Positions 6,580 through 21,953 of a DNA stretch of 24,434 bases are shown here, piece by piece. The notes beneath the pieces were generated by a model. It was given only the letters and a program-made list of their open reading frames with translations. It made no database searches and was not told the DNA's origin. The position numbers and the translations under genes were made by a program. Numbering within the stretch: the stretch's first letter is position 1; the number at the start of each line of letters is the position of its first letter. This DNA is from a virus, in the IMG/VR virus record IMGVR_UViG_3300042502_001783, positions 1-24,434 of that record; one strand, 5' to 3'.

Positions 6580-6587
6580 TATAAATA
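6580..6587 (+). promoter_or_regulatory. T4-type late promoter for the plus-strand operon
   Basis: An exact TATAAATA box, the late promoter consensus recognised by T4 gp55 with gp33 and the sliding clamp. The predicted start is about 6593, giving a ~29-base leader before gp4 at 6622. No TTGACA lies upstream, so this reads as a pure late promoter. It lies within the leader of the opposite-strand gp48/54-like gene. Confidence 0.8.
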
Positions 6588-6604
6588 TCTCTGTATGTTA
6601 GAAG

Positions 6605-6612
6605 TATTTATA
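6605..6612 (-). promoter_or_regulatory. T4-type late promoter for the minus-strand baseplate operon
   Basis: TATTTATA on the plus strand is an exact TATAAATA on the minus strand. The predicted start is about 6599, so the 5' ends of this transcript and of the plus-strand one overlap by several bases. No sigma70 -35 box is seen at the right distance. Confidence 0.8.
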
Positions 6613-10993: not shown

Positions 10994-11926
10994 TTAGTCG
11001 TCAGTCGCAAGTCTCTTGAAAAAGTCAAGTGTTTCCTCATCATCTTCATCAAGAGATGGTGCTACATCTTCTTTTTGCTTAGCTGCAACCTTTTCCTTAA
11101 AATTCGGCTTATACTCAGTTTCATCAGATTCATCACTTGTCTTATTTGAAGAACTTGTCATTGACCCATTTAAACCGAGAACTTTATAAAGTTTAGTCTT
11201 TAGTTCATTATACGACTTAAAGTTCTTTGGATCAGTGATGTCCTTTAACGAATGCATCGATCCTACTAATTCTTCAAGCTCTTCTTCTGTAAATGGTTTG
11301 CCATTCGATTTAGTGATTTGTCCTGGTTCGCTGAACTCCGATTTGTCGTAGTTACGATACCCTTCGTAGTTTCGAATCTTCAGCTTAAAATCGGCGCCAT
11401 CCCAAAGATCAAATGGATTTACTGCTTCTTCACCTTCATATTGAGGATTCATTGCTTCCTGAATCTTCTCCATGATTTTTTTGCCAAACTTAAACAAGAA
11501 AACTTTGCCTTCGTTCTTTGGATTTGCCGAATCTTTTATCATATAAATGTTTGCATAAAAGTTTGTTCTACGCTTTTGTTTACGAGCAATCTCTTTATTT
11601 GATTCAATACCGGAATTCCACAACTGAGAATTATACTCACTTACTGGATCATCTTGACCAAGAGTTGCGAGTGAGTTTTCAATATACCATCCTCCAGGTC
11701 CTTGGAATCCATGATCGATCATTTTTACGAATGGAAAATCTTCTCCCTCTGGTGCTGGAAGAAAACGGAAAACGGCATACCCGTTACCAGCTTTATCAAC
11801 TTCTGGTTTCCAGATGTTTTCATCATTTGAAGAGGAGTTATTGTTACCTGCGGCCTTCTGCAGCTCAGAGTTGAGTTTATCGAGAGAAGACGAGCGATTA
11901 GATTTGAGTTTATCTAAATAAGACAT
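10994..11926 (-). CDS. 32: Single-stranded DNA-binding protein gp32
   Basis: 310 residues (T4 gp32 has 301). The N-terminus, with basic SYLDKLKSNRSSSLDKLNSE, is the cooperativity domain. The core OB-fold shows GNGYAVFRFLPAPEGEDFPF, KMIDHGFQGPGGWYIEN, RRTNFYANIYMIKDSANPKN and EGKVFLFKFGKKIMEKI, collinear with T4 gp32. The C-terminus is acidic (SLDEDDEETLDFFKRLATDD), as expected for the arm that recruits replication partners. T4 gp32 binds zinc through His64 and three cysteines; here His72 is kept but the protein has no cysteine at all (the CPVC position reads DPVS). It coats ssDNA in replication, recombination and repair. The hybrid promoter and leader repeats upstream suggest expression through infection with autoregulation. 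Confidence 0.95.
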   Translation of the reverse strand: MSYLDKLKSNRSSSLDKLNSELQKAAGNNNSSSNDENIWKPEVDKAGNGYAVFRFLPAPEGEDFPFVKMIDHGFQGPGGWYIENSLATLGQDDPVSEYNSQLWNSGIESNKEIARKQKRRTNFYANIYMIKDSANPKNEGKVFLFKFGKKIMEKIQEAMNPQYEGEEAVNPFDLWDGADFKLKIRNYEGYRNYDKSEFSEPGQITKSNGKPFTEEELEELVGSMHSLKDITDPKNFKSYNELKTKLYKVLGLNGSMTSSSNKTSDESDETEYKPNFKEKVAAKQKEDVAPSLDEDDEETLDFFKRLATDD

Positions 11927-11993: not shown

Positions 11994-12024
11994 TATTTAT
12001 ACCACAAATAAGTGAGTATGTCAA
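11994..12024 (-). promoter_or_regulatory. Hybrid sigma70/late promoter for gp32
   Basis: On the minus strand TTGACA (12019-12024) is followed after 17 bases by TATAAATA (11994-12001). The first six bases of the box serve as a sigma70 -10 (TATAAA), and the full eight match the T4 late consensus. The predicted start is near 11988, at the foot of the leader hairpin. Confidence 0.75.
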
Positions 12025-12028
12025 CTGA

Positions 12029-12619
12029 TTAAGAAAATCTTTCGAGTAATGTTTGTTTCATTTTTAGTTTATCATAAGTAAAGAACGGTCTGATTTTTTC
12101 TACACTTCGTTTGATTTGTGGGAAAATGATTGGATCTGTTATTTTCTTTTCCCAATACGAAAAATTCTTTACAAAGTCATCAATGATAATAAGTGTTTCG
12201 ACGCTTACTTTTTTCATATTATAGAGTTCAAGTAATCGAGGATGTTGGCCATCTTTTACTTCTAAATTTGAGTTGAAATCGTCTTCTAATTCTGACAAAT
12301 CATTGAGAAAAACATACGATAGAGTTTGTTGTTTACGATTCCAATTCAAATAGATATCTTCAGCTCTGTTATTATCTATTAAGTCTCCAATCCAAAGAGT
12401 AGGATCAGACATAATATTTGCCAAAATAAACTCTTTAGCATCTTTTCTTTTGGCTAACTTATAGAAGTGAAATTTGTCTTTACGGTTTTCGAATGCTTGA
12501 TGTGAAGCTTTTACTTTGCCGTTATATTTGAAGTAATCGTATTCAGTTGTGAAGTGTTTTTTCAGCGCGAGATAATAGATGTAAAGATCATACGCATCCC
12601 GTGTTGAGTGTACTATCAT
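12029..12619 (-). CDS. 59: Helicase loader gp59-like
   Basis: 196 residues (T4 gp59 has 217). The N-terminal half matches the family: DAYDLYIYYLALKKHFTTEY, then DYFKYNGKVKASHQAFENRK and DKFHFYKLAKR, corresponding to T4's YKLYLMIKQHM, YDVIKYN and RRDKYFFQKLSEKY. WIGDLIDNNRAEDIYL follows, like WIGDISDADA in T4. The protein binds fork DNA and gp32 and loads the gp41 helicase, coupling recombination to replication. The start overlaps the gp33-like stop by one base (TAATG). T4 keeps genes 59, 33 and 32 together; here the order in transcription is 33-like, 59, 32. Confidence 0.9.
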   Translation of the reverse strand: MIVHSTRDAYDLYIYYLALKKHFTTEYDYFKYNGKVKASHQAFENRKDKFHFYKLAKRKDAKEFILANIMSDPTLWIGDLIDNNRAEDIYLNWNRKQQTLSYVFLNDLSELEDDFNSNLEVKDGQHPRLLELYNMKKVSVETLIIIDDFVKNFSYWEKKITDPIIFPQIKRSVEKIRPFFTYDKLKMKQTLLERFS

Positions 12620-12843
12620 TAAATTTGAAGCCTTTTAGTTTTTTCTACTAGATTAAGTTTCTCAGCATCTTCATGAACCTTTGCTTTCATGATTTGGCTT
12701 CTTCTCACTATATCGCCAATTATTTCAACTTCTATATTATGTATTTCTGCATAATGAATAAGAGCATCGATATACGATACCTCTTCGTTGATGTATTTGT
12801 TTACTTCATTCAGAATACTTTCCGCGGTCAATTCTATTTGCAT
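12619..12843 (-). CDS. 33: Late transcription accessory protein gp33-like
   Basis: 74 residues: MQIELTAESILNEVNKYINE, then YIDALIHYAEIHNIEVEIIG, DIVRRSQIMKAKVHEDAEKL and NLVEKTKRLQI. The YIDALIxYxExNxIEVExxxxxI...KAKVxEDAEKLN pattern is that of the short gp33 proteins of marine T4 relatives; T4's own is 112 residues. gp33 bridges the RNA polymerase beta flap and the sliding clamp for late transcription, in keeping with the TATAAATA promoters in this window. It starts directly after the upstream stop (TAAATG) with no clear ribosome site, so translation is probably coupled. The assignment rests on pattern and position next to gp59 and gp32. Confidence 0.6.
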   Translation of the reverse strand: MQIELTAESILNEVNKYINEEVSYIDALIHYAEIHNIEVEIIGDIVRRSQIMKAKVHEDAEKLNLVEKTKRLQI

Positions 12844-13070: not shown

Positions 13071-13331
13071 TCACTTCTCTGTTAATCTATTTGAGACAAA
13101 CGCGTATAATTCGTTGGCACGTTTTAAAACATCACTTGACTCATACATTTTTGGAATGTTAGAATCAATAAAAATATCCAAATCCAACATTGGACCAGCC
13201 GGATACGTGCTTTTAAAGTAATCGTATTTGGTATTAAACTTTTCTTGATTAAGTTCTGTTTCTCTATCTAGCATATTTTGCGCCATTTTGAGAACATCGA
13301 GGCGCACTTCAAAGGGTGTTTTATTTGCCAT
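13071..13331 (-). CDS. Conserved T4-superfamily hypothetical protein (MANKTPFEVRL family)
   Basis: 86 residues from ATG 13331, beginning MANKTPFEVRLDVLKMAQNM. A longer frame exists, but this start gives the N-terminus I recall from small proteins near replication genes of marine T4-like phages. The rest is helical with DYFKSTYPAGPMLDLDIFID, then a C-terminal helix. It overlaps the end of the VWA gene by 11 bases, with AAGGCGG upstream. Function unknown. Confidence 0.65.
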   Translation of the reverse strand: MANKTPFEVRLDVLKMAQNMLDRETELNQEKFNTKYDYFKSTYPAGPMLDLDIFIDSNIPKMYESSDVLKRANELYAFVSNRLTEK

Positions 13332-14265
13332 TTGTGTATACCGCCTTGTTTCTTTCTTCATCATTAAATGCTGTAGCTCCATATACAGAAGAAGTATTTA
13401 GGCCAGCAGCATAAGCAGTTTTCATTCTTGATGTCATGTCAGAAGCTGAACGAATAGTTTCAGCAGAGTTCGTTGTTAAGAATTGGAGAGTATTCTCGTT
13501 TTTGAAACCAAGCGAAACACCTGTTGCAAATGCATCAATGTTTGCTCCAAGAAACATGAATCCCCAGTTTTTGCTTTCAGCTATTTCAATCATGGGCTTA
13601 ATATTTGAAAGACTAAATGTTCTTGACATATTCTCTTCACCATCAGTGAGTACGGTGATGATTATTGATTCACGATCTTTTTTCTTTTTCGCACTGAGCG
13701 CAGAGTTAACTGCCATCATCACTCCACCAATTGCGTCATAAAGATTCGTTCCTCCACTTGGCCGATACGTATCATTATTTAGGGGCTGAACTTCTTCTAT
13801 ATCTTTACTATCAATGGAGCATGTCACGCCATATCCATTAAACTTATACAGAGAAACAAGTGTTTTGATACCAGTCTTTTTTGCATCTTCTTTCTGGGTT
13901 AATAGATACTCGTTATACCCAGAAATAGTCGCTTCTTTACACAAAGACATCGAACCAGATTCGTCAAGAACAAAAATGACGTGAGAAAGATTCGTGTTCC
14001 TTGCAGCGCGTTTTGGTTTAAAGGCTGCATCCAAATTCGGCCTTTGGGCTTCAATGATTGGTTGTGTCGTCATTGTATCAACCGGCCCCGATTGAATAAC
14101 TTGAGGAAAGATATACGGATTTGTCAATGGGCTAAAAGGTGTTGACTCCCATTGCTTATTAATAGGGTATCCAATCGTTGGTTTGACAAATGGGTCACGG
14201 GGTAAATTAATAGGGTATCCAATCGTTGGTTTGACAAATGGGTCACGGGGTAAAATGTATGTCAT
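13321..14265 (-). CDS. VWA-domain protein with duplicated N-terminal repeat
   Basis: 314 residues. A von Willebrand A domain starts near residue 93: HVIFVLDESGSMSLCKEA has the MIDAS motif DxSxS (Asp101, Ser103, Ser105). PSGGTNLYDAIGG supplies the MIDAS Thr, and IIITVLTDGEENMSR the third-loop Asp. Such domains bind a metal and a protein partner and often pair with MoxR-type AAA+ ATPases, one of which lies upstream at 15346-16458. The first 36 residues contain two identical 16-residue copies of LPRDPFVKPTIGYPIN from a perfect DNA duplication. ATG at 14265 has AAGGA upstream. The tmRNA lies just upstream on the same strand and may share its promoter. The biological role is unknown. Confidence 0.8.
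   Translation of the reverse strand: MTYILPRDPFVKPTIGYPINLPRDPFVKPTIGYPINKQWESTPFSPLTNPYIFPQVIQSGPVDTMTTQPIIEAQRPNLDAAFKPKRAARNTNLSHVIFVLDESGSMSLCKEATISGYNEYLLTQKEDAKKTGIKTLVSLYKFNGYGVTCSIDSKDIEEVQPLNNDTYRPSGGTNLYDAIGGVMMAVNSALSAKKKKDRESIIITVLTDGEENMSRTFSLSNIKPMIEIAESKNWGFMFLGANIDAFATGVSLGFKNENTLQFLTTNSAETIRSASDMTSRMKTAYAAGLNTSSVYGATAFNDEERNKAVYTNGK
14158..14254. repeat. Perfect 48-bp tandem duplication at the 5' end of the VWA gene
   Basis: Bases 14158-14206 are repeated exactly with a period of 48 (14206-14254). The unit is in frame and encodes LPRDPFVKPTIGYPIN twice. The absence of any mismatch implies a recent duplication, active homogenisation, or an assembly error. Confidence 0.9.
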
Positions 14266-14289: not shown

Positions 14290-14608
14290 GTGAAAGGACC
14301 CGTTAGGTTATACGGTGGAGCCCATACCGCAGACAGTGATTTAAGCCGCTAGACGTAGGTCCATTGGCGCAAAGTTGTCGTTTGCAATGTTTGTTGCATT
14401 TAGAAATTTCTTCGCGGTAACGGCGCTTAGATCCCGATAGCTCCACTCTGCCTAGTACGTACATCGATCCCATTCACCCCCAGCAAAGACATATCACATG
14501 CGACTTCCAATTTGGTTGCAATCCTGTTAACAAGATCGGATATATCTGTGGTGGAGGTGTCGGCTTCGAAGCCGAGTCTGTTCCGTGTTCAGTGAATATC
14601 AACACTAT
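14290..14608 (-). ncRNA. ssrA: Circularly permuted (two-piece) tmRNA, alphaproteobacterial type
   Basis: Read on the minus strand, the acceptor piece comes first. The T-arm TCGGC-TTCGAA-GCCGA (14575-14560) leads into CACCTCC, discriminator A and an encoded CCA ending at 14549. After a ~67-base intervening segment, the coding piece starts GGGGGTGAATGGGATCGATG at 14481. GGGGGTG pairs with CACCTCC over seven base pairs, and the third pair is G-U, the alanine identity element. The tag frame (14385-14341) reads ANDNFAPMDLRLAA then TAA; ANDNFA starts and LAA ends fit alphaproteobacterial tags. A pseudoknot is possible after the tag (CGGT/ACCG with GGGCTC/GGGTCC). The T-loop appears one base shorter than usual. 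tmRNA rescues stalled ribosomes and marks products for proteolysis. Outer ends are approximate. Confidence 0.9.
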
Positions 14609-14613
14609 GAGTA

Positions 14614-14644
14614 TATTTATATCACAATTATTATAGTATGTCAA
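14614..14644 (-). promoter_or_regulatory. Hybrid sigma70/late promoter for the tmRNA and VWA gene
   Basis: On the minus strand TTGACA (14639-14644), then 17 bases, then TATAAATA (14614-14621). The arrangement is the same as upstream of gp32. The predicted start near 14608 is just before the acceptor piece of the tmRNA. No terminator is obvious between the tmRNA and the VWA gene at 14265. Confidence 0.75.
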
Positions 14645-14668: not shown

Positions 14669-14965
14669 CTAAACGAGAGAAGGAGACTGATATATATGAA
14701 CAGTCATAAGATAAAATGGACCACTAGTTCGTGGAGACTCAAGGTGCAAAGTCCCGACGTATACCGAATGATCTGGAACATCCCCACCAGTTAAGACACT
14801 AGTGAAGGTTACATCAACTGGGATCAGGGGCTTCTCAAGTGTTTCATAAAATATTGCTGGTATACCATCTTGTTCATGAACGGTGAGCACCTTAAATGCT
14901 CCCTGTGAAGCTGTTATTGTTACACTTGTATCTGTCATTTGTGTCTTATGAATCACTCGTCCCAT
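14669..14965 (-). CDS. Hypothetical phage protein, DUF7352-like pattern
   Basis: 98 residues beginning MGRVIHKTQMTDTSVTITAS and continuing QGAFKVLTVHEQDGIPAIFY. The order (short beta start, then GAxxLxVxxQxGxPxxxY, then YVGTLHLE and FYLMTVHIYQS) resembles the small phage family catalogued as DUF7352, whose function is not known. The match is by pattern only. AAGGAGT stands before ATG 14965, and the gene lies 18 bases after the membrane protein in the same direction. Confidence 0.65.
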   Translation of the reverse strand: MGRVIHKTQMTDTSVTITASQGAFKVLTVHEQDGIPAIFYETLEKPLIPVDVTFTSVLTGGDVPDHSVYVGTLHLESPRTSGPFYLMTVHIYQSPSLV

Positions 14966-14983
14966 AACATTACTCCTTAATGT

Positions 14984-15346
14984 TTATTCGTCTTCATCGC
15001 TGTTCTTGATACCGATCACATTTAGTCTAACTAGAAGCACAAGAATATTCGTATAAAGCAATATACTAATCCAAGGAATAGCTATATACGCAATTTGAGA
15101 ATATTCGCTTACGTATACAAATGACACTGCTGTAGCATTAACGAAAAGAAAACCTAACATCTTCTGAATGTCAGCACCTACATTCAACGTAGACCCAGCT
15201 ATTCCAACAAATACTCTTGACAAAATATAGTAAAAGTCAATAGCATTAATGCATACAAATAAAGCTAAGGCTTCTATACTATATGGAACATTAAAACTTG
15301 CGGCCACTACAGCCGCGAGCACAATGTATACAAATATTTTTTTCAT
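14984..15346 (-). CDS. Small membrane protein of the AAA+ operon
   Basis: 120 residues. Hydrophobic segments at about residues 5-20, 25-45, 63-80 and 84-108 (IFVYIVLAAVVAASF, ALALFVCINAIDFYYILSRV, MLGFLFVNATAVSFVYV, IAYIAIPWISILLYTNILVL) suggest three or four membrane helices, with an acidic tail NSDEDE. I do not recognise the family. The start overlaps the stop of the AAA+ gene by one base (TAATG), so the two are translationally coupled. This may mean the ATPase works near the membrane, but that is inference. Confidence 0.7.
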   Translation of the reverse strand: MKKIFVYIVLAAVVAASFNVPYSIEALALFVCINAIDFYYILSRVFVGIAGSTLNVGADIQKMLGFLFVNATAVSFVYVSEYSQIAYIAIPWISILLYTNILVLLVRLNVIGIKNSDEDE

Positions 15347-16458
15347 TAAAAGGGTGCATCCAGATTTTCTGGTGTCTGAGGCGTATTCAAATCCGCATTT
15401 GCATCAATTTTTGCATAAAGATCGATGAAAGCTGCCTGAGTGTCGGAGTCAAACCTTGACACACAGAGCGTAATAGATTTTTTTCTGTTTTTGAAGATTG
15501 CAAAAGTTTGTACGATGTGGCACAACCGGCGGCTTGAAATAACTTCTTCTACACCACCGTCATCAAACGTTTTACGAATAGCCGCAGACCATTTCGTAAG
15601 GTTGTCAGCAAACTCTTCGTCAACGTTTCCGAAAAGTTCCATGTGCTTAAGCACAATCTTCTTTTCTACGTTGGCATTAGGATATGGTTGCTCAACGGTG
15701 ATAGTGAACCGTTCAAGAAAAGCTTCGTCGATGATGCTAGCGGCAATGAAACGACCGTCTTCTGAACCCTTACCCTTTGTGTTAGAAGTAGCGATGATGT
15801 TAAAACCAGGAGCTGGTGATATAAGTTCACCAGTCTTTTTGATCAAAACTGGTTTACCTTCGAGCACACCCTGAAGAGCCATTAGCTTGTTTGAACCCCG
15901 ATCAATTTCGTCGATGAGAAGGATTGCACCAGCTTCCATTGCTTTGATAACCGGTCCCTTTGCGAAAACAGTTTCACCGTTTGAAAGCCGGAACCCGCCG
16001 ATAAGATCATCTTCGTCTGTCTCAGGGGTGATCTGAAGACGAATATATTCTCGGTTAAGTTCTGCACAAGCCTGTTCAACCATCATTGTTTTGCCATTAC
16101 CTGACATGCCAGTGATATAAACCGGATAGAACATTTTTGATCCGATGATAGTAGCGATGTCTTTGTAATGGCCCCACTTAACGTATGTCTTCGATTTGTT
16201 TGGGATATGTGTTCCATCTTCAGACAAAATCTTTGGCTGTTCGAAGCCCTGTGTCATGACAGGACGAAGTTGAGTAACAGTAGCTGACAGATCATATACT
16301 CCCCGCTTAACTGTTACAACGTTTTTGATTACTGACCAAACAACATTGTGTTTGATACCATTTGCATCAGCAAAATCGACAAGTTCTTTGCGAGTAAACG
16401 TGGTTGCACCAGGATTGGCAGCCAGAATTGCTTCGACGAAGTTCTTAATGTCAGACAT
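15346..16458 (-). CDS. cobS: MoxR/CobS-type AAA+ ATPase
   Basis: 370 residues from ATG 16458, which has GGAG six bases before it; an ATG four codons upstream lies on that site. Residues 1-58 are a small helical, probably winged-helix domain (TTFTRKELVDFADANGIKHN). The AAA+ core shows Walker A GMSGNGKT (117-124), DEDDLIGGFRLSNGETVFAK, Walker B LLIDEI (180-185), sensor 1 ATSNT and an arginine-finger candidate in EAFLERF. T4-like cyanophages carry the same protein, named CobS after a cobaltochelatase subunit. No other cobalamin genes are seen here, and MoxR relatives usually act with VWA proteins, two of which are encoded nearby. It probably remodels or activates a protein complex with them. A sigma70 promoter precedes it. 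Confidence 0.85.
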   Translation of the reverse strand: MSDIKNFVEAILAANPGATTFTRKELVDFADANGIKHNVVWSVIKNVVTVKRGVYDLSATVTQLRPVMTQGFEQPKILSEDGTHIPNKSKTYVKWGHYKDIATIIGSKMFYPVYITGMSGNGKTMMVEQACAELNREYIRLQITPETDEDDLIGGFRLSNGETVFAKGPVIKAMEAGAILLIDEIDRGSNKLMALQGVLEGKPVLIKKTGELISPAPGFNIIATSNTKGKGSEDGRFIAASIIDEAFLERFTITVEQPYPNANVEKKIVLKHMELFGNVDEEFADNLTKWSAAIRKTFDDGGVEEVISSRRLCHIVQTFAIFKNRKKSITLCVSRFDSDTQAAFIDLYAKIDANADLNTPQTPENLDAPF

Positions 16459-16492
16459 GTGAATCTCCATTGGATTATCTGCTTACATATTC

Positions 16493-21154: not shown

Positions 21155-21335
21155 TATTAACATCCTTTACATATGTTGTAACCATCGTGTTCCACTCAGT
21201 GATAGCATCATTTTTATCAAGACTGGAAGGCCCATATGCGCTACATTGTACACACTTTACCCACCGCGCTAAAACTCCAGAAATTATTAGATAATCAGAG
21301 CTACATCCATTAGGGCATGGGATCAGGTCGCTCAT
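21138..21335 (-). CDS. Lar-like zinc protein (short)
   Basis: 65 residues. IPCPNGCSSDYLIISGVLAR and WVKCVQCSAYGPSSLDKNDA, then ITEWNTM, follow the Lar family outline: CPxxCxS, a strand, VxCxxCxAxGP, then an A-I-x-x-W-N helix. Lar of the Rac prophage relieves type I restriction by modulating the methyltransferase. Many phage proteins share the fold without tested function. ATGA overlap with the upstream Lar-like gene. Confidence 0.7.
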   Translation of the reverse strand: MSDLIPCPNGCSSDYLIISGVLARWVKCVQCSAYGPSSLDKNDAITEWNTMVTTYVKDVNNERAC

Positions 21336-21724
21336 TGACGTTCTCCATTACGCACGGCCTTAATTGCGGCATCAGCTAGCATTAACCACTTGGTCCGCTC
21401 TTGGTCTGAGGCATCTGCGAAACCTTCCAAGGTGCGGTTTTTACCAACATTTGGTGCGGCACGGTCAGCTTCGGCTTTCCACATACTGAATGCTACATGC
21501 TCACAGTTAATACGCATTTGTGTATGTGCGCGGGTGTTCCATGAATCAACTGTCTTCTGATACTCAGTGTTATATTCTCCTTCGGCTTGGGGCCACACTC
21601 CGCAATACAGGCTTTCGCAGGTGATGTAGAACATGGGATCTGTAATCACATTTCCGTTGATGTAGTCATCCAGATGGGTTTGAGGTTTGCTCCCACAGAA
21701 CGGACAGGGCAGTAGGTTACTCAT
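21332..21724 (-). CDS. Lar-like zinc protein with C-terminal accessory helix module
   Basis: 130 residues from ATG 21724, which has an excellent AGGAGG site; the frame is open further upstream inside the neighbouring gene. MSNLLPCPFCGSKPQTHLDD, then FYITCESLYCGVWPQAEGEY and TVDSWNTRAH match the Lar pattern (CPFCGS, CxxxxCG, WNTR). The last ~60 residues (NCEHVAFSMWKAEADRAAPN, then EGFADASDQERTKWLMLADA) form the helical module often attached to phage accessory proteins. It may act against restriction; this is inferred from family only. Confidence 0.72.
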   Translation of the reverse strand: MSNLLPCPFCGSKPQTHLDDYINGNVITDPMFYITCESLYCGVWPQAEGEYNTEYQKTVDSWNTRAHTQMRINCEHVAFSMWKAEADRAAPNVGKNRTLEGFADASDQERTKWLMLADAAIKAVRNGERQ

Positions 21725-21953
21725 AACTCGCCTCCTCTTGAGGATCATCGCAGCCGCACGAAATGGCTTGTCCACCACAAACGGCGCAGCGTTCTTGGTC
21801 ACAGCCGGGGTGATGCAGCGTTCCGGGTGGGCAATAACAGTCGTGGCATCGATCCGTGCCACTGTTAGGCAACCGTGACGGCTCCCTGTCGAACTTGAGA
21901 TAAGTGCAGCCGACGGCGTAGGTCATTTCCTGTTCGCAACAGTTGCAAATCAT
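21717..21953 (-). CDS. Cys-rich zinc-binding protein, 78 residues
   Basis: From ATG 21953, with GGAGG just upstream. Cys and His recur in CxxC-like pairs: MICNCCEQE, then DRCHDCYCPPGTLHHPGCDQ and ERCAVCGGQAISCGC. This is enough for two or three zinc knuckles. No DNA-binding fold I can name. It overlaps the next gene by eight bases and the previous by four (ATGA). Confidence 0.62.
   Translation of the reverse strand: MICNCCEQEMTYAVGCTYLKFDREPSRLPNSGTDRCHDCYCPPGTLHHPGCDQERCAVCGGQAISCGCDDPQEEASYE

Follow-up and report, generated by a model that had tools for sequence, protein, structure and literature searches.

In tmRNA, the G3-U70 base pair is the signal for alanylation, SmpB serves in delivery, and the LAA end of the tag is recognised by ClpXP. 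The tmRNAs of the Bxz1 group of mycobacteriophages and of Bacillus phage G are of the standard one-piece form. These phages encode a tmRNA of their own (PMC4131195) but are unrelated to the phage described here. Two-piece phage tmRNAs are already known as well. A 2022 survey of 18,146 phage genomes yielded 133 unique tmRNA structures, of which it called 53 two-piece, and 50 of these came from marine or aquatic phages (PMC9004378); a tmRNA database holds 79 phage sequences (PMC11915505). The known cases include one of the alphaproteobacterial type, the ssrA of the Methylophilales phage Melnitz (MZ577097; PMC9004378).

The window analysed here is the whole of the 24,434-base IMG/VR record IMGVR_UViG_3300042502_001783, from an uncultured T4-type phage. 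Like Melnitz, it carries an alphaproteobacterial-type two-piece tmRNA upstream of gp33-gp59-gp32, with a 7-bp acceptor stem containing G3-U70, a tag ending in LAA (the Melnitz tag is ANDNYVPVDYALAA) and the promoter TTGACA-N17-TATAAATA. In contrast, Melnitz has a glutamine riboswitch behind its tmRNA and the window has none at the Rfam gathering threshold, although the Melnitz authors describe the riboswitch as common and not defining (PMC9004378). Melnitz also lacks a VWA-annotated gene between the tmRNA and gp33, where the window has one, and the window differs further in its probably extended tag and 6-nt T-loop. The tmRNAs from related, uncultured T4-type phages of IMG/VR (e.g. L109, L114 and L102) share the structure, place and tag type of the window gene, and most of them its promoter; L109 is 76% identical to it over 188 columns. 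Chromosomal two-piece tmRNAs of alphaproteobacteria (RF01849) have the same permuted order, tRNA-like domain and ANDN...AA tag, but they form a separate tree cluster, are not phage-linked and mostly score 110-165 bits against 70 for the window. What would go beyond the known cases is an unusual tag start and a joint promoter pattern.

Results

An earlier note, made from the sequence alone, had placed a phage-encoded, circularly permuted tmRNA at 14290-14608. Rfam covariance models bear this out on the minus strand, where RF04321 (tmRNA_permuted) matched 14609-14341 with 70.5 bits (E 6e-12; cut-off 47 bits) and RF01849 (alpha_tmRNA) matched 14657-14293 with 58.8 bits (cut-off 50 bits). The gene lies between the VWA gene and a gene for 98 amino acids at 14669. 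ARAGORN, which the note had also proposed, made no tmRNA call in the window at its default threshold; at relaxed thresholds it recovered the permuted structure, and this call is weak evidence because five overlapping alternative calls came alongside. Comparison of the window tmRNA with named phages by blastn gave a short chance match only. The covariance-model bit score of the window tmRNA is the lowest of the phage copies and falls under nearly all host copies. A 440-nt stretch with the tmRNA is identical in two further IMG/VR contigs from two other datasets, and an assembly error therefore seems unlikely.

The window encodes T4-type tail-tube cap, baseplate wedge and hub, head closure and DNA end protector proteins, together with gp32, gp59, gp33, CobS and CobT-like proteins. 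The nearest relatives share the order CobT-CobS-tmRNA-VWA-gp33-gp59-gp32; in several relatives at a greater distance, and in Melnitz, the tmRNA still precedes gp33-gp59-gp32. The RF01849 match, the T4-type neighbours and this synteny uphold the suggestion that a T4-type phage carries the alphaproteobacterial two-piece form, and, as far as sequence comparison reaches, the window gene is confirmed as a real permuted tmRNA gene of that type. Among named phages, Sinorhizobium phage phiM12 is close by gp59 (39%) and gave no tmRNA match in the same model search. Other features of the window include a 16-residue unit of about 48 bases that occurs twice without change at the opening of the VWA gene (LPRDPFVKPTIGYPIN; 14159-14254) and a Lar-type restriction-alleviation domain protein (21332-21862) among small genes near the right end. 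The G+C content climbs rightwards from about 0.33-0.42 to 0.45-0.59 between 19000 and 24434, where database matches are few, and this end is possibly a different gene module.

Table 1 Features of the tmRNA locus and its surroundings in the window
Feature	Coordinates	Strand	Basis or remark
CobS/MoxR-type ATPase	15346..16470	minus	Protein match; upstream; query for relatives
-35 element TTGACA of joint promoter	14639..14644	minus	Exact; 17-nt spacer to TATAAATA
TATAAATA, T4-type late promoter box, also near-consensus -10	14614..14621	minus	Sequence
Permuted tmRNA gene	14341..14609	minus	RF04321 match, 70.5 bits
Helix 2, ACA strand	14579..14581	minus	Partner of 14463-14461; three pairs two-sidedly changed vs commonest pairs
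T-arm, 5-bp stem UCGGC/GCCGA, 6-nt loop UUCGAA	14560..14575	minus	Rfam model and alignment
Acceptor stem, 3' strand CACCUCC	14553..14559	minus	Pairing
Encoded discriminator and CCA end (ACCA) of acceptor piece	14549..14552	minus	Sequence
Intervening segment, 67 nt, presumably excised in maturation	14482..14548	minus	Alignment, folding
9-bp helix of intervening-segment ends	14547-14539 with 14495-14487	minus	Alignment, folding
Acceptor stem, 5' strand GGGGGUG, start of coding piece	14475..14481	minus	Pairing; G3 paired to U70
Helix 2, UGU strand	14461..14463	minus	Comparative alignment
Likely tag ATNIANDNFAPMDLRLAA-stop, resume codon GCA at 14397	14341..14397	minus	Context score; A at -4
Tag of the earlier note, ANDNFAPMDLRLAA-stop	14341..14385	minus	Frame, context; in frame with longer tag, C at -4
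3' rest of coding-piece precursor	14293..14340	minus	RF01849 match, to limit of alpha_tmRNA model
VWA-domain protein, directly downstream of tmRNA	13321..14265	minus	Same in most nearest relatives
gp33-type late-transcription coactivator	12619..12843	minus	Protein match
gp59-type helicase loader	12029..12619	minus	Protein match
Second TTGACA-N17-TATAAATA, upstream of gp32	11994..12024	minus	Exact; sole other exact copy in window
gp32 single-stranded DNA-binding protein	10994..11926	minus	Protein match

In the window gene the acceptor piece, with its encoded CCA, precedes the coding piece. Its two ends pair as the note had described, with GGGGGUG and CACCUCC forming seven of seven pairs, the third of them G-U, followed by ACCA. 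The folding energy of the single sequence is unremarkable (z -1.46), and the structural case for a tmRNA is carried by comparative pairing. Relatives were gathered via the VWA and CobS proteins and searched with the same covariance model, which gave matches above the cut-off in 35 of 49 relative records and, among records further away, in 2 of 22. Such a frequency in the clade, together with the two-piece phage tmRNAs published in 2022 (PMC9004378), speaks against the remark that tmRNAs are rare in phages. Where the note had looked to related phages for broken acceptor pairing, the opposite was found: all seven acceptor pairs, G3-U70 among them, are present in all 33 script-extracted copies (L044 excluded) and in every one of 49 complete further phage copies, and the other acceptor pairs vary among the 33 (e.g. 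GGGCCCG/CGGGUCC and GGGCGAU/AUCGUCC).

An alignment of 25 distinct phage tmRNAs, made without fitting to a structure, contains four helices of 24 pairs with 99.8% of cells paired, the consensus structure itself being taken from that alignment. Two-sided changes occur in 20 of the 24 pairs, none of 500 shuffles reached the observed pairing level, and a slid control also fell far below it. Across the 25, neither G3-U70 nor the two outer acceptor pairs nor the CCA varies. Helix 2 of the window reads A-U, C-G, A-U against the commonest C-G, U-A, G-C, so that the whole 3-bp helix has been swapped; on this alignment, the swap is direct evidence of selection on the window copy. From these comparisons the tmRNA gene appears common to many relatives and clearly maintained.

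The tag proposed earlier was accurate in its frame and in its LAA-stop end; its start probably lies further upstream. A resume codon is preceded by A at -4 in 24/24 related phage copies, 60/66 host copies and 49/49 further complete phage copies, and in E. coli tmRNA the corresponding change, A86C, abolishes normal activity (PMC2481249). The resume codon of the 14-residue tag (the ANDN site) has C rather than this near-invariant A. Therefore, the tag probably starts 12 nt earlier, a shift that would be required for normal activity. The GCA at 14397 stands in frame 12 nt upstream of the ANDN site and has a resume-context score of 5.63, compared with -0.46 for the ANDN site and a median of 5.8 for all copies; ARAGORN at the relaxed threshold picks the same codon. 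The likely tag is 18 residues long, ATNI-ANDNFAPMDLRLAA. Relative to aligned kin, the window has 12 nt inserted just upstream of the tag, and none of the aligned IMG/VR phage tmRNAs has this insertion. The window tag ends RLAA-stop, and most related phage tags end ALAA. An RLAA end was considered as an unusual feature and dismissed, since 9 of the 49 further phage tags and some host tags also have it.

The TATAAATA box ends 4 nt ahead of the RF04321 model start and is preceded by TTGACA at exactly 17 nt. In the related loci, a perfect TTGACA 16-18 nt upstream is found at 11 of 15 TATAAATA sites at tmRNAs versus 1 of 107 other sites (Fisher p about 1e-11, from related sequences whose events are not independent). 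The same TTGACA-N17-TATAAATA arrangement precedes the Melnitz tmRNA, where its authors assigned an early promoter (PMC9004378), and recurs in relatives. Upstream of gp32 in relatives the late box is common, and the perfect -35 is limited to the window's own lineage. A consensus promoter scan of the window passed over the tmRNA promoter, since the scan accepts only -10 hexamers with T in the sixth place. In RB49 and S-PM2, overlapping early and late promoters have been proposed as the source of middle-mode transcription (PMC2984593). By analogy of sequence, the tmRNA promoter would combine early (sigma-70) and late (gp55/gp33) signals, and we infer the timing of its use in the window phage from this combination. 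We found no description of such a joint pattern for phage tmRNAs in the open-licence literature, which is weak evidence of novelty. Elsewhere in the window, at 6580-6612, two divergent TATAAATA boxes separate the tail-tube cap operon from the head-closure operon, an arrangement that late promoters would be expected to show.

We interpret the window gene as a functional ssrA gene belonging to a T4-type phage, with a probability of roughly 0.8. An improbable alternative is that it is a decaying relic, a diverged copy whose resume signal is damaged and whose tagging has been lost. Such decay would fit the lowest score of the phage set, the 12 nt inserted right upstream of the tag and the C at -4 of the ANDN codon, given the effect of A86C in E. 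coli (PMC2481249). However, the window copy retains every one of its 15 pairs in the acceptor stem, T-stem and helix 2, and a relic is unlikely because a whole 3-bp helix has been swapped on both strands by two-sided changes. In addition, the tag frame is open to LAA with an in-frame GCA in a normal context, the promoter is intact and the sequence is identical in two other datasets. Less probable still is a decoy, that is, an RNA that binds SmpB or stalled ribosomes and blocks or replaces host trans-translation with tagging unimportant. Phage DS6A provides a precedent in a tmRNA consisting of the tRNA-like domain only which, or a molecule similar to it, inhibits host tmRNA (PMC11915505, PMC4131195). 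DS6A differs from the present case, however, and a decoy would have no need of the tag frame, LAA-type end and resume signal that are conserved across the phage clade.

To place the gene among its homologs, a tree was built from 27 tmRNAs of phages and 69 from bacterial genomes. The former group together (95/92) with one genome-derived copy among them, in a tree of 195 usable columns with long branches and unsettled bootstrap. That genome-derived copy has terminase genes on one side and head genes on the other and appears to lie in a prophage. Since the phage tmRNAs cluster apart from host tmRNAs, the gene looks like an old phage property that does not identify the host. The expectation that the tmRNA would point to the host group is therefore poorly supported by comparison with the sampled alphaproteobacterial copies, and it is weakened again by Melnitz, which has the same alphaproteobacterial tmRNA type and infects the gammaproteobacterium OM43. 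Recent capture of the gene from a host, or a contig contaminated with bacterial DNA, is very improbable: tmRNA genes are common integration sites that phages can carry off, but T4-type genes stand on the flanks, synteny is conserved in many phages, 68 host copies fall outside the phage cluster, and a bacterial genome collection of 84,980 species contains no exact copy of the 26-nt T-arm/acceptor string.

Several further tmRNAs were noticed among the records searched. An alphaproteobacterial contig (L293, 4510-4850, minus strand) holds a second permuted tmRNA, divergent in sequence and accompanied by two tRNAs, between the terminase large subunit and head genes and with a GroES-like gene nearby; it is apparently prophage-borne and outside the T4-type phages. 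Sinorhizobium phage Phosso (PV764938; L130, 2406-3095) has an unannotated permuted tmRNA that scores 113 bits and whose intervening segment is very long. Two weak partial matches near each other in IMGVR_UViG_3300007171_000825 (L127 and L128) are possibly a decayed or divergent copy, and one Bradyrhizobium genome (G071, behind L136) has two tmRNA matches, of 135 and 128 bits.

Discussion

If the window carries a working ssrA gene, one precursor RNA would start, probably at the TTGACA-N17-TATAAATA promoter, and fold so that the acceptor stem and the intervening-segment helix join its two halves. Host tRNA-processing enzymes would excise the intervening segment, leaving an acceptor piece that ends in CCA and a coding piece that starts with GGGGGUG. 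Host AlaRS would charge the RNA with alanine via G3-U70, and host SmpB would presumably deliver it to stalled ribosomes, because no SmpB gene was found in the 26 phage records searched, one of 195 kb included. The released protein would be marked by the LAA-ending tag for host ClpXP-type proteases. As the promoter unites an early and a late signal, the RNA would be expected from early through late infection, and the benefit may be that ribosomes stay available during the breakdown of host and phage mRNA. The redirection of ribosome rescue suggested by the earlier note is a plausible, putative role. A wider scenario is possible and we offer it tentatively: T4-type phages of this clade would own an old tmRNA lineage apart from those of their hosts and, with a joint early/late promoter, take over rescue through infection, and in the window a 12-nt in-frame insertion would have moved the resume codon to give an 18-residue tag.

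These results have practical consequences for annotation. Default ARAGORN can overlook divergent phage tmRNAs, tag starts call for a check of the A at -4, and a phage tmRNA is unfit for naming the host, because the phage copies form a separate cluster. For the biology of these phages, the window gene is a well-supported further case of a trait published in 2022, and within a clade of T4-type phages this trait proves common, syntenic and subject to selection on its structure. A testable prediction on the timing of phage tmRNA synthesis comes from the recurrence of the TTGACA-N17-TATAAATA promoter.
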